Positions 37,608 to 42,348 of a stretch of DNA of 64,000 nucleotides are shown one piece after another. A program made the position numbers and the translations under genes. The number at the start of each line of letters is the position of its first letter. The first letter of the stretch is position 1. The DNA lies in NCBI RefSeq assembly GCF_000184345.1, contig NC_017583.1, positions 1,364,001-1,428,000 on the forward strand. Direction: 5' to 3'. The stretch is from Spirochaeta thermophila DSM 6578 (GTDB lineage: Bacteria; Spirochaetota; Spirochaetia; Winmispirales; Winmispiraceae). The notes beneath the pieces were generated by a model. It searched no databases, was not told the origin of the DNA, and saw only the letters and a program-made list of their open reading frames with translations.

Positions 37608-37898
37608 GGGTCGCTCCTGTTGTGATGAGGTGATACTATCATATTTAGAGGTGAGGAGAAAAAAGTCAAGAGGTTATATGGATAAAAAACTATTTATTAT
37701 CGACGAGGAGACTCCTGGCGATCGGATCGCGTACACCCCATCGCGTCGACACACGACCAGATTTTTCCCAGGCGTGAACCATACGAGGCATTCCGCTCTC
37801 GAATGTGAGCACCCCCCATTCCAATCGGTCATATCTGATATTTATTTATATTATAAAATTTTCTTGACATACGATCAGGGCGGGGGTATGCTTCGAAT
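37608..37898. promoter_or_regulatory. Divergent intergenic region: V-ATPase promoter and leaderless cyclase promoter
   Basis: Of these 291 bases, the left 70 hold the V-ATPase promoter (minus strand). At the right end TTGACA (37864-37869), 17 bases, TATGCT (37887-37892) stands six bases before the cyclase ATG 37899, again without a ribosome binding site. The middle (37690-37850) is AT-rich at its right end and holds no gene or hairpin that I can support. Confidence 0.65.
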
Positions 37899-39338
37899 AT
37901 GAAAGGCATCGTTCCCATCACCAGGAAGGTGACCCTCCTCATATCGGGATCGCTCATCGTGGGAATCGGGCTCATCGTAGGGATCTTCACCACCAACATC
38001 GTGAACCTCATACGCGAGACCACGGCCGAGAGCCTTGTGACACAGAGCGAACTCCTCTACAACGCCATAGAGAACTTCATGATGCCGGGGGAGGCGCCCC
38101 TCGCGGTGAACTACTTCATGGACATTTCGGAGGACCAGCCGGGCACGAGAATCCGCCTCTTCCGGTCCGACGGCACCCCGGCCTTCAGTGACACCACCAC
38201 CCTTCTTCAGGTGAACACGCGTCTGGGCGGCCAGCGGTTCTCACCTTCGAGCCCACGGGCGTTCGTGGGAGTGCCCCCTCTCTCCGGCGATCTCCTCGCC
38301 CGCATCGGTTCGCCCTACCCCCATCCCGTTCAGGTGCAGGACGAGGAGGGGGGCCGGGCATACCTCACGGTCTACTCCCCTCTCATCAACCTCCCCAAGT
38401 GTACGGTCTGCCACGGAGAAGACCACACCGTCCGTGGGATCGTCGAGATACAGGACGACATCACTTCCTCGGTGCAGACGCAGCGGGCGAACGTGATCTT
38501 CGCAGGGAGCGCCTTCCTCACCATCGTGATCATCCTGGGGTGGGCCCTTACCTTCTTCCTCAGGCGATCGGTCCTCGAGCCGGTGAAGAAGATCGGCGAG
38601 GTGTGCGCCGCCGTCACCAACGGGAACTTCCACGTTCGGGTGGATCTTCGCCCACGGGACGAGATCGGGCTCCTCGGGGAGACGGTGAACACCATGGTAA
38701 AGGGCCTCTACGAACGCTTCGAGCTCTCGAAGTTCGTCTCCAGGAGTACCATACGGGCGGTACAGGACGCGAGCGAGGAAGGGATCCGCACCACGATGGT
38801 GCTCCTCTTCTCCGACGTGCGGGGATTCACCTCGTTCGCCGACAGGGAGGATCCCGCCCGGGTGGTGCATGCGCTCAACGAACTCCTGTCCCTCCAGACA
38901 TCGATCATCCATGCCCACGAGGGCGACATCGACAAGTACGTGGGCGACGAGGTCTTCGCCTTCTTCCAGGGATCCGATGCCCCGGTGCGGGCGGCCCGCG
39001 CCGCCCTCGACATCCAGCGCGTGATCGAGGAGAGGAAGGATCAGGTGGCGGGCCTTTCGGTGGGGATAGGGATCCACTCCGGGGAGGTGATACTGGGGAA
39101 GATAGGGAGCGCCGACAGGGCCGATTTCACGGTGATAGGCGACAGCGTGAACCTGGCATCGAGGCTCTGCGATGTGGCGCCTCCGGGCAAGGTGGTGATC
39201 TCCGATGCCTTCCACCAACTCCTTGTCGAGGAAGCCGTAGTGGAAGGCCCCTACCGTCTCTCGGTGAAGGGCAAGGAGGAAGATCAGAAGGTGTACATGC
39301 TCGTAGGCCTGAGAGGAGGAGACGATGCAGAGACGTGA
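37899..39338 (+). CDS. Adenylate cyclase with periplasmic c-type haem sensor domain
   Basis: This 479-residue inner-membrane class III cyclase has TM1 (about 10-35), a periplasmic sensor (36-198) with a CTVCH haem c motif (168-172), TM2 (199-222), HAMP (about 223-275) and a cyclase domain (290-475). Metal ligands are Asp306 ('LFSDVRGF') and Asp350 ('KYVGDEVF'). Lys346 and Asp409 predict ATP rather than GTP as substrate, and Asn418 and Arg422 ('DSVNLASRL') are the transition-state residues. The haem domain resembles PAS-like haem sensors of Geobacter chemoreceptors. The likely signal is redox state, NO or O2, read as cAMP. The start is set by the promoter six bases upstream. The next gene overlaps its end. 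Confidence 0.9.
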   Translation: MKGIVPITRKVTLLISGSLIVGIGLIVGIFTTNIVNLIRETTAESLVTQSELLYNAIENFMMPGEAPLAVNYFMDISEDQPGTRIRLFRSDGTPAFSDTTTLLQVNTRLGGQRFSPSSPRAFVGVPPLSGDLLARIGSPYPHPVQVQDEEGGRAYLTVYSPLINLPKCTVCHGEDHTVRGIVEIQDDITSSVQTQRANVIFAGSAFLTIVIILGWALTFFLRRSVLEPVKKIGEVCAAVTNGNFHVRVDLRPRDEIGLLGETVNTMVKGLYERFELSKFVSRSTIRAVQDASEEGIRTTMVLLFSDVRGFTSFADREDPARVVHALNELLSLQTSIIHAHEGDIDKYVGDEVFAFFQGSDAPVRAARAALDIQRVIEERKDQVAGLSVGIGIHSGEVILGKIGSADRADFTVIGDSVNLASRLCDVAPPGKVVISDAFHQLLVEEAVVEGPYRLSVKGKEEDQKVYMLVGLRGGDDAET

Positions 39339-39873
39339 GATGTCCCTCACGGGCGTGTTCGCAGCCGTACTTCTCGTTCTCTCGGTGATCACGGGATGCG
39401 GAAAGGGTGCGCCCGCCTATCGGGTAACGGAGGGGTATCGCTCGTGGAAACGAACCACCACGGTGGAACTCGACTACCCCATTCCCGGACACGGGACCGC
39501 CTATCGGAGGATCTACATAAGTCCGGAGGGGGAGAACCCTCAACGGGGGATCGACGGTTCGTACGTGTACCCTGAGGGGACCATGGTGGTGAAGGAGGTC
39601 TACCGGCAGCGGCCCACCAGTCCGGAGCAGGAGCCGGACATGTTCACCGTGATGATAAAGGTTCCCCACGATCCGAGGAGCCGCGGAGGATGGGTATGGC
39701 TCGTGCAATCGGGCGAAGAGGTGATGGTGATACCCGATGCCTTTTGCGAGAGCTGCCACGAGAATGCAAACGAACCGCATCCCTACGGGGACGGTAATCC
39801 CAGAGGAGTCTTCCGTGACTACCTGTTTTTCCCCTACCCACCACCTCAAGGGAATGGGGGGCCAGATCAGTAG
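39325..39873 (+). CDS. Cytochrome P460-like haem lipoprotein
   Basis: This 182-residue lipoprotein has a lipobox 'VITGC' (Cys25), a cytochrome P460-type beta fold with 'YPEGTMVVKEVY' (Lys90 is a candidate for the haem-lysine crosslink of this family) and 'GGWVWLVQSG', and a haem c motif CESCH (141-145). True P460 proteins oxidise hydroxylamine or bind NO; several homologues are c'-type gas sensors. It overlaps the cyclase gene by 14 bases with AGGAGGAG upstream, so it is made from the same mRNA. It probably supplies or senses the ligand for the cyclase, or lets haem proteins report periplasmic NO. It converges with ccsA, overlapping by seven bases. Confidence 0.8.
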   Translation: MQRREMSLTGVFAAVLLVLSVITGCGKGAPAYRVTEGYRSWKRTTTVELDYPIPGHGTAYRRIYISPEGENPQRGIDGSYVYPEGTMVVKEVYRQRPTSPEQEPDMFTVMIKVPHDPRSRGGWVWLVQSGEEVMVIPDAFCESCHENANEPHPYGDGNPRGVFRDYLFFPYPPPQGNGGPDQ

Positions 39874-40601
39874 GAGTGCAGACCTCTGAAGAGGAAAGGC
39901 ACGCCCACGAGGGTGAAGAGGAGCAGGAGGGCACCCACCAGGGGCATGAGGCGAAAGGGGGTGCGTCGGCGGAGCGAGGCCGGGAGGTGGAGGTAGGCGG
40001 TGTACCAGAGCCAGACGATGAGCGACCAGGTCTCCTTTGGATCCCACCCCCAGAAGCGTCCCCAGGCGAAGAAAGCCCATACCGCGCCGAAGACGAGCGC
40101 CCCGAGAGTGAAGAGGCCATAGCCCGCTCGGAGAAGTCCCTCCATAGTCGATGCCGTGGTGTCTGAGGAGGAGCGCCGGAGCGAGAGGACTGCGCCCACA
40201 AAAAGGAGTACCTCGCCCACCGCAGTGGTGACTACATGGAGGACCAACCACGCGGAGAGGAGGATGGGCCGAGCGGAAGAAGGAGGAGGGGCCATGGGGG
40301 AGAGGGCGAGGGAGGCGAGGGCCCACCCGAGGAAGAGGAGAAGTGGTTCAGAACTACGGAGGAGGAGCCAGGCGGCAATGAGCCCCATAGAGAGGAAGAG
40401 GAGGAGGTGGAAGAGGGAGAGGAAGGCGGGTAGGCCCGTACGCACGGATTCATAGCCCCAGGCGAGGAGGAGGAGGGAGAGGGAGAAGCCCGCGCCCCAG
40501 CGCCCCACCCTCCCCGCCTTCCCCCGAAGGCGGCCGAGGCCCACGGCCACCATCGAGGCGAGGAGCACCCCCCACCCCGCGATCATCAGTATACGTGTCA
40601 T
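39867..40601 (-). CDS. ccsA: Cytochrome c maturation protein CcsA (ResC)
   Basis: This 244-residue protein has about eight membrane helices and carries the tryptophan-rich haem-handling WWD signature 'WGRFWGWDPKETWSLIVWLW' (about 180-200). Conserved His residues occur in 'LLHVVTTAVGEV'-like ('LVLHVVTTA') and 'AYLHLPASLR' segments. With ResB it forms system II synthase, which exports haem and ligates it to CXXCH apoproteins. ATG 40601 overlaps the resB stop (ATGA). The two CXXCH proteins opposite are its obvious local clients. It is the third gene of bioB-resB-ccsA. Confidence 0.93.
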   Translation of the reverse strand: MTRILMIAGWGVLLASMVAVGLGRLRGKAGRVGRWGAGFSLSLLLLAWGYESVRTGLPAFLSLFHLLLFLSMGLIAAWLLLRSSEPLLLFLGWALASLALSPMAPPPSSARPILLSAWLVLHVVTTAVGEVLLFVGAVLSLRRSSSDTTASTMEGLLRAGYGLFTLGALVFGAVWAFFAWGRFWGWDPKETWSLIVWLWYTAYLHLPASLRRRTPFRLMPLVGALLLLFTLVGVPFLFRGLHSY

Positions 40602-41350
40602 GTGCGCCTCCTTCCGGGAATCCCGAGCACCACCACCCCCGCCCCCACTGCCACCAACCCCCCCATCACCACCCACACCCCCTGCACCCTCCGTACCACC
40701 AGCCCCACGAACCGCCCCTTTTGTACCCCCACCACCTCCACATCCCCCAGCCGCTCACCGGCACGCACCACCCTCCACTCCTCTCCAACTCTCAGCCTCC
40801 CCGCCCCTTCGAACCACACCTCCAGCCCCCCCACCGGCGCCCCCTGTCCGGGGTACAGCACATGATACCTATCCTGCACCCTGAGGACGAGTCGCTCTTC
40901 CTTCAAATCTCCCAGAAAGACCCACCACACCCCCATCCTCAGAGGTCTGTTCAGACTCACCCGGCCTTCCCCTTTGCCCAGACGCATCCGCACGCCCTGC
41001 GCCTCACCTCCCACCCCCACCACCTCTTCCACCGTCACCTCCTCACCCTCCACCGCGAACCCTTCCTCCTCACCCACCCACACCACCCCGCCCCTCTCCC
41101 CTACCGCCCATACCACTCCACCCACTAAAACCACCACGACCCCCACATGCACCAGATCGGCCCCCATCCCCCGCCATCCCCTGAACGCCCTCCCCTTCCA
41201 CAGCCGGTACCCCACACACCCGGCCACCATCACCCCCAACCCCATCATCGCACCCGAGAGAAAGGGACTCGGGAGACCCAAGACCACTCCCACGAGCACC
41301 ATGCCCCCCACCACACCTACCCCGACCGCCCCTAGAAGGAGGGCCTTCAC
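40598..41350 (-). CDS. ResB-like cytochrome c maturation protein (short form)
   Basis: This 250-residue membrane protein lies between bioB and ccsA with ATGA overlaps on both sides. Hydrophobic segments near 1-30, 32-50, 65-85 and 225-245 flank a periplasmic domain (about 90-215) with 'LNRPLRMGVWWVFLGDL' and 'VWFEGAGRL', as in ResB. It is shorter than ResB of Bacillus (about 540 residues), so it is a minimal version. The coding strand is very G-rich (Val, Gly and Glu codons dominate), unlike its neighbours. Assignment relies partly on adjacency to ccsA. Confidence 0.75.
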   Translation of the reverse strand: MKALLLGAVGVGVVGGMVLVGVVLGLPSPFLSGAMMGLGVMVAGCVGYRLWKGRAFRGWRGMGADLVHVGVVVVLVGGVVWAVGERGGVVWVGEEEGFAVEGEEVTVEEVVGVGGEAQGVRMRLGKGEGRVSLNRPLRMGVWWVFLGDLKEERLVLRVQDRYHVLYPGQGAPVGGLEVWFEGAGRLRVGEEWRVVRAGERLGDVEVVGVQKGRFVGLVVRRVQGVWVVMGGLVAVGAGVVVLGIPGRRRT

Positions 41351-42348
41351 CTCATCCCTCCGACTCTTTCTCCCCCCACCTCTCTCACGACCTCACACCC
41401 CAATGCCTCGAGCATCCTCAGGTCCTTCTCCACCTCCCGCCCGGCCACGGTGAGCAGATCACCCACCATCATCCCCGTCGCCCCGGCGTAGAAGATCATG
41501 GACTGCAGATCCCCCAGGAGGAGCCGGCCCGCACACACCTTGAGCTCAGCCGCAGGATGGACGAGGCGCACCATCGCGATGCAGCGCAGGATCTCCACCG
41601 GCTCCATGGCCTTCATCCCGCCGAGCCTTGTCCCCGGAACGGGGATGAGAAAGTTGAGCGGTACCGAATCGACCCGCTCTTCGTAGAGGATGCGGGCAAA
41701 GGCTACCCGCTCCTCGGGCGACTCCCCCATCCCGAAGATCCCCCCACTGCACACCTCCAATCCCACCGCCTTCGCCGCCCGTACCGTGGCAAGACGCTCC
41801 TCGAACGAGTGCGTCGAACAGATCCTGGGAAAGAACGAGGGAGCGGTCTCGAGATTGTGGTGGAACCGTGTGAGCCCCGCCTCCTTCAGCCTGAGGAGCG
41901 CCGCCTTCGACAGGGCCCCGAGCGAGGCACACCAGCGCACCCCTTCCTTCACCGAGAGGGCCTCTGCCACCTCTTCGAGCTCCTCGTCCGAGAGGCGCTC
42001 CCCGCTCGTCACCACCCCGAAGTGCCGTACGGGAAGCCGTCGTGCCGCCTCCCGATACTGTTCCTGAATCACCCCCGCACGCCTGAGGGGATACACCTCC
42101 ACCTCCGTGCGGTGGTGGGCCGACTGAGCACAGAAGGCACAGTCCTCGGTGCAGGCCCCGCTCCGCGCGTTCATGATGGAACAGAGGTGCACCCTGTGGC
42201 CGAAACGTGCGAGCCTCAGTCGATTGGTGTGCACGAAGAGCTCGGGAAGCCGCGAGGCCGGCACCTCCAGCACCCTAAGGGCATACTCGTCGGGCAGGCT
42301 CTCACCCGCCTCCACATGGTCACCTATCGCCCTGAAGAGTCGTTCCAT
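41347..42348 (-). CDS. bioB: Biotin synthase
   Basis: BioB is the radical-SAM enzyme that inserts sulphur into dethiobiotin. This 333-residue protein has the 4Fe-4S/SAM motif CTEDCAFC (Cys66, Cys70, Cys73), the 2Fe-2S ligand regions 'CASLGALSK' and 'VCSGGIFGMGES', and 'FLIPVPGTRLG' near the C-terminus. ATG 42348 is six bases after a -10-like CATCAT and lacks a strong ribosome binding site (only GGGG). No other bio gene is nearby. Its stop overlaps resB, so biotin synthesis and cytochrome maturation genes share a transcript. A BirA-type operator covers its promoter. Confidence 0.95.
   Translation of the reverse strand: MERLFRAIGDHVEAGESLPDEYALRVLEVPASRLPELFVHTNRLRLARFGHRVHLCSIMNARSGACTEDCAFCAQSAHHRTEVEVYPLRRAGVIQEQYREAARRLPVRHFGVVTSGERLSDEELEEVAEALSVKEGVRWCASLGALSKAALLRLKEAGLTRFHHNLETAPSFFPRICSTHSFEERLATVRAAKAVGLEVCSGGIFGMGESPEERVAFARILYEERVDSVPLNFLIPVPGTRLGGMKAMEPVEILRCIAMVRLVHPAAELKVCAGRLLLGDLQSMIFYAGATGMMVGDLLTVAGREVEKDLRMLEALGCEVVREVGGERVGGMR

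Follow-up and report, generated by a model that had tools for sequence, protein, structure and literature searches.

Periplasmic sensors of the sCache_heme kind (DUF3365/Tll0287) are diagnosed by a CXXCH motif placed in a helix between two strands; the member with a HAMP domain that has been studied binds nitric oxide (NO) tightly and forms no stable O2 complex (PMC12889525, a 2026 preprint). The same preprint lists sCache_heme with Guanylate_cyc among frequent domain associations and leaves a P460 lipoprotein partner unmentioned. The crystal structures of two such sensors, GSU0935 and GSU0582, are domain-swapped dimers; both proteins have been interpreted as ligand switches coupled to redox state, with values of −251 and −156 mV, and the haem of GSU0935 is held by Met60 and His144 (PMC8396549). 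Here we describe a locus of Spirochaeta thermophila DSM 6578 in which a related sensor is fused to a predicted adenylate cyclase and is encoded next to a cytochrome P460-family lipoprotein and to the system II genes for cytochrome c maturation (positions 37899–42348 of the window, that is, of the 64,000-nucleotide stretch analysed, bases 1364001–1428000 of the complete 2,560,222-bp genome). The host is a heat-loving fermenting spirochaete. We consider it about 60% probable that receptor, P460 lipoprotein partner and system II genes together make up a periplasmic haem-c signalling module.

The cyclase gene (37899–39338, plus strand; 479 residues) encodes a transmembrane helix, a periplasmic Cache-type c-haem sensor, a second transmembrane helix, a HAMP domain and a class III cyclase domain. 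It overlaps by 14 bp the gene of the 182-residue P460-family lipoprotein on the same strand (39325–39873; PF16694, E = 1.8e−14). On the minus strand, ccsA, encoding the system II cytochrome c synthase subunit (39867–40601; PF01578, E = 1.4e−19), overlaps the P460 gene tail to tail by 7 bp and the gene of its partner, a short form of resB (ccs1; 40598–41350), by 4 bp. The ratio of non-synonymous to synonymous substitution rates (dN/dS), calculated against the copies in a congener, is 0.15–0.30 for all five genes of the region, bioB included, which indicates purifying selection; because, in addition, the cyclase–P460 pair recurs across the phylum, the locus appears to be more than a product of chance. 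An earlier note on this DNA had described a class III cyclase with CTVCH in its periplasmic domain, a P460-like lipoprotein with CESCH beside it, and resB and ccsA opposite, and all three descriptions hold, resB being recognized through its homologues and its overlap with ccsA. Its view that such fusion of a haem-c sensor with a cyclase was unknown does not, given the preprint cited above.

By its sequence, the sensor domain (37989–38530, plus strand; residues 31–210 as modelled) is of the known sCache_heme kind, with GSU0935 and GSU0582 as its best solved relatives. When the profile of the sensor family was compared with all solved structures, 3B47 (GSU0582, E = 4.2e−6) and 3B42 (GSU0935, E = 3.5e−5) were the sole significant matches, and the same two structures rank first, with modest TM-scores, in a fold search using the predicted sensor structure. 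In the model, strands 114–120 and 123–133 are followed by a helix, 136–142, which carries the CXXCH motif, and by strand 148–157, so that the predicted domain has a Cache-like fold. The motif CTVCH (38400–38414, plus strand) ends in His172, and the predicted sixth haem ligand is Met61 (codon at 38079–38081, plus strand). Positions 26 and 110 of the 3B42 chain, which by residue count and profile alignment are Met60 and His144 of GSU0935, align on Met61 and His172, so that the same His and Met would ligate both haems. Neither residue varies among 19 cyclases or among 28 sensors, and the same holds for CXXCH itself. The protein shares with sCache_heme receptors, including GSU0935 and GSU0582, a periplasmic Cache-like domain, two transmembrane helices, HAMP and a signalling output, but differs from them in its divergent sequence, its P460 lipoprotein partner and, in this genome, the adjoining c-haem synthase.

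HAMP (residues 220–270, E = 2.5e−11) and Guanylate_cyc (residues 301–469, E = 3.8e−22) both exceed the Pfam cut-offs, and the catalytic residues of class III enzymes, namely, the metal-binding Asp306 and Asp350, Lys346, Asn418 and Arg422, are invariant in 19 sequences. By sequence the catalytic domain is therefore intact, with the residue set found in active adenylate cyclases. Lys346 in combination with Thr411 presumably specifies ATP as substrate, the predicted product being cyclic AMP (cAMP) rather than cyclic GMP. HAMP and catalytic residues are those of other class III adenylate cyclases with HAMP, the difference being control from a periplasmic c-haem domain. The genome encodes four class III cyclase domains and seven cyclic-nucleotide-binding domains, and of three cyclic-nucleotide-binding proteins checked, two also carry a helix-turn-helix of the CRP type, in one case scoring just under the cut-off; cAMP therefore probably has readers in this organism.

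The lipoprotein (lipobox Cys25) is a member of the P460/c′-beta superfamily, on which sequence, profile and predicted fold agree: it scores 54.7 bits against a PF16694 cut-off of 27, and the ten best matches in a search with its modelled fold are all P460 or c′-beta proteins. When the single sequence was compared with the PDB, no useful match was obtained, whereas the family profile did match. Its haem c attachment motif, CESCH (39745–39759, plus strand; located by motif scan and alignment), lies near the C-terminus, as in known cytochromes P460 and c′-beta (PF16694, PMC11928373). Lys90 (codon at 39592–39594, plus strand) aligns on Lys106 of NsP460 and Lys78 of McP460, the site of the haem–lysine cross-link of P460, and is kept in nearly all family members; what is conserved is the residue position, and the cross-link itself is predicted. 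The distal carboxylate position (Ala131 in NsP460, Glu96 in NeP460) is occupied by Thr108, and mostly by Thr across the family, unlike in hydroxylamine-oxidizing forms. NsP460, with the lysine and without the carboxylate, does not oxidize hydroxylamine (Table 2 in PMC11928373). Because the spirochaetal protein likewise keeps the lysine and has Thr108 at the carboxylate position, oxidation of hydroxylamine is probably not its function. It further differs from known P460 and c′-beta proteins in being a lipoprotein, in the association of its gene with a receptor instead of nitrogen metabolism and, in many family members, in an extra C-terminal segment, ANExHPYxDxN...FRD.

To see how constant this partnership is, we compared 393 genomes of the phylum (below, L-numbers denote compared DNA stretches, G-numbers genomes and f-numbers families). 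The sensor is present in 23 of them, PF16694 in 35 and both in 20 (Fisher p ~3e−21, relatedness ignored). The cyclase and P460 genes form a pair in 20 of the 23 sensor-bearing genomes, being neighbours in either order, most frequently with a 4 bp overlap. A scan of 84,980 species genomes with one short peptide pattern, which cannot show absence elsewhere, returned 34 loci, 33 from genomes titled as spirochaetes and one from a deltaproteobacterial symbiont; in most of the 34 a P460 gene lies alongside. Two stretches (L182:3973-7612 and L183:1430-4979) encode the same sensor with a CheA-like kinase as its output, with Hpt and HATPase_c found in L182; CheX-like and CheY-like genes precede the sensor-kinase gene and a P460 lipoprotein gene follows it, possibly representing a haem-c chemotaxis-type pathway. 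Since P460 also accompanies the kinase-linked sensor, it is associated with the sensor rather than with the cyclase. Such constancy regardless of output is the strongest clue to a part in sensing, and suggests one. In an Olavius-associated deltaproteobacterium, a related haem sensor has HAMP and a SpoIIE phosphatase as output (L181:4824-6428), and another protein, with a weak match to the P460 profile, is encoded on the opposite strand at a distance of ~3.3 kb. Genes for a FUR-family regulator, rubrerythrin and/or ferritin occur near the cyclase–P460 pair in several families (L144:3681-8105, L145:2939-6639, L149:5252-7163 and L143:11775-12293), suggesting an oxidative-stress setting.

These observations can be accommodated in the following scenario. 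CcsA and ResB would attach haem to both the sensor and the P460 protein. The receptor haem would be held by His172 and, in the reduced state, by Met61; oxidation or NO binding would displace Met61 and shift the sensor dimer, by analogy with the Met on/off switching proposed for GSU0935. HAMP would relay the change to the cyclase, the altered cAMP level being read by CRP-type proteins of the same genome. The P460 lipoprotein would sit by the receptor as a ligand-binding or redox partner, where it may capture NO or another oxidant and set the state of the receptor haem, or else end the signal. What we infer here is the identity of the ligand, be it NO or some other oxidant, and the role of P460. 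A bolder form of the scenario is a two-protein periplasmic haem relay, in which the P460 lipoprotein is a dedicated ligand or redox partner whatever the output, cyclase or CheA-like kinase, and the synthase is kept solely for signalling in a predicted haem-auxotrophic fermenter; we would give this form a little under even odds.

The alternative that survives best concerns the signal. The receptor might be a sensor of oxidants rather than of NO specifically, its haem reporting the redox state of the periplasm (O2, peroxide) through Met61 switching, with P460 passing electrons or reacting with peroxide. Such a role would agree with the redox-linked behaviour of GSU0935 and GSU0582, with the stress genes near the module in genomes of families f38, f24 and f14, and with the report that peroxide forms the P460 lysine cross-link (PMC11928373). 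On the other hand, the sole HAMP-linked member tested acts as an NO sensor (PMC12889525), and the window contains none of these stress-gene neighbours. We regard this alternative as a tentative one, though of some weight.

Another possibility is that P460 is an independent enzyme or scavenger of NO or hydroxylamine, tied to the sensor by expression and making no contact with it, detection of the toxin falling to the sensor and its removal to P460. The chemistry of the P460 family on both compounds (PMC11928373) and the arrangement of cyclase and P460 in one operon would fit such a division of labour, but Thr108 is what forms not oxidizing hydroxylamine have at the distal carboxylate position, and a part in sensing is suggested by the lipid anchor and by the constant association with a receptor whose output changes. 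A separate scavenger thus seems unlikely.

The presence of maturation genes beside the sensor could also be incidental, ccsA and resB serving other c-type cytochromes. As in system II elsewhere, the two genes are adjacent and overlapping, CcsA is tryptophan-rich (motif WGRFWGWD) and ResB is its partner; here ResB is short and the evident clients are the sensor and its partner only. CcsA is clear, although its TIGR03144 score of 105 bits is under the cut-off of that model. The assignment of ResB relies on its homologues, on gene order and on overlap. The protein matches Pfam directly only at a weak level (PF05140, E = 0.0034), and it is 26% identical to a homologue in L134 and 19% identical over part of a clear ResB in L143. 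Cytochrom_C_asm (PF01578) is found in all 23 sensor-bearing genomes compared with 139 of 393 overall. At least three families have resB–ccsA next to the cyclase–P460 genes. This is so in the family of the window (three genomes), in L143 (order cyclase–P460–resB–ccsA, genes overlapping or abutting), in L139 (P460–cyclase–resB–ccsA, with ResB just under the Pfam cut-off) and in L164 (resB–ccsA, one further frame, cyclase–P460); in L143 and L139 the four genes form one apparent operon. The 139 genomes with PF01578 and the location of ccsA and resB elsewhere in most families would be expected if their place beside the sensor were incidental, but the recurrence of this adjacency across three families, two of them with an apparent operon, and the finding of no other exported CXXCH protein in this genome make that explanation very improbable.

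The latter finding comes from a scan of the whole genome that covered the canonical motif, as distinct from CX3CH, CX4CH and other variants, and is limited also by codon scoring. There are 95 CXXCH-coding sites, compared with 105 for a reversed control pattern. At least 3.6 kb were read around the sites, with codon usage scored in six frames and one or two representatives taken of an 11-copy repeat. About a dozen CXXCH frames look coding, and the exported proteins among them appear to be the cyclase sensor and P460 only. The remainder, named from reading the sequence and partly without searches, look like metal-binding or Fe–S proteins of the cytoplasm (UvrA, DnaG, radical SAM proteins, ferredoxins, class I lysyl-tRNA synthetase, a zinc ribbon and a HIT protein), except that one motif falls within the signal peptide of a lipoprotein and one frame runs antisense to another gene. 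Within these limits, the scan speaks against a hidden respiratory chain served by ccsA and resB; it seems that signalling, not respiration, is what keeps the synthase beside the sensor in this genome. The earlier note had suggested that the maturation genes may serve mainly this sensor, an idea that many other c-type cytochromes would contradict; as the scan finds no other evident exported CXXCH protein, the idea stands. Its picture of a sensor packaged with its own synthase proved real here and in some lineages, but not universal, and co-occurrence across spirochaetes, which it had named as a check, is seen both for P460 (20 of 23) and for PF01578 (all 23). The situation differs elsewhere: just 5′ of the cyclase in L145 lies a frame with five CXXCH, by appearance a multihaem cytochrome (L145:6966-7500), hence other module-bearing lineages do have further c-type cytochromes. 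The 15-mer TGCTATACTTGCCAT has eleven identical copies in the S. thermophila genome (e.g. 315585–315599), where the frame does not look coding; this suggests a repeated element.

Several points weigh against the proposed signalling module. The sensor haem, its ligand and the cyclase activity are predictions from sequence and models, and the proposed role of P460 is deduced from gene association. Most families do not have ccsA or resB within sight of the pair. The sensor is below the Pfam cut-offs of both PF21563 and PF11845; its weak match to the former (Mcp40H-20_sensor), over CTVCH, scores 23.3 bits against 27, and since most of its relatives do match at E ≤ 0.1 (15 of 18 for PF21563, 13 of 18 for PF11845), we file it as a divergent relative of sCache_heme. 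Finally, ferrochelatase, sirohaem decarboxylase and AhbD gave no match at the cut-offs in the whole genome, a gap that speaks somewhat against a functional haem sensor. The genes hemA, hemL, hemB and hemC, with cobA/hemD, are present (L075:10161-15747, from genome stretch 1870000–1889999), and the frames beside them read as sulphate assimilation, as expected for sirohaem. As the terminal enzymes were not found, the organism should need external haem, and haem auxotrophy is predicted from its gene content. Ferrochelatase is matched in just one of the 23 sensor-bearing genomes (G020). That the locus is a decaying relic with an apo-sensor in an organism unable to make haem, as the missing enzymes might imply, is hardly credible given the dN/dS of 0.15–0.30, the invariant haem motifs and ligand residues, and the retention of the module by the other 22 genomes, which lack ferrochelatase.

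In the open-access literature we found no description of P460 with an adenylate cyclase and, in titles and abstracts, no sign of a P460–histidine kinase pair; thus neither the partnership with P460, nor its persistence whatever the output domain, nor a dedicated system II was found described there. Cytochrome c maturation is usually explained by respiration or detoxification. If the receptor and its partner are the only c-type haem proteins of this organism, signalling alone can keep the maturation machinery. The locus would also be a compact natural model in which to study the control of a cyclase by covalent haem, and the conserved partner points to a likely sensory role of the P460 fold outside nitrogen metabolism.

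The remaining gene of the region, bioB (41347–42348, minus strand; biotin synthase, TIGR00433, 351 bits), leads the resB–ccsA strand and overlaps resB by 4 bp. Its start, 42348, is where the earlier note had ended the region, leaving the gene unnamed. In the congener bioB also adjoins resB (L133), and it was not seen near these genes in L134; it is unlikely to be part of the module. Scanning the window for Rfam families and tRNAs gave no matches. A weak promoter-like site, recognized by consensus match only (10 of 12 positions), lies 5′ of the cyclase gene (37864–37892, plus strand), one of two such sites in the region, where 0.9 would be expected.

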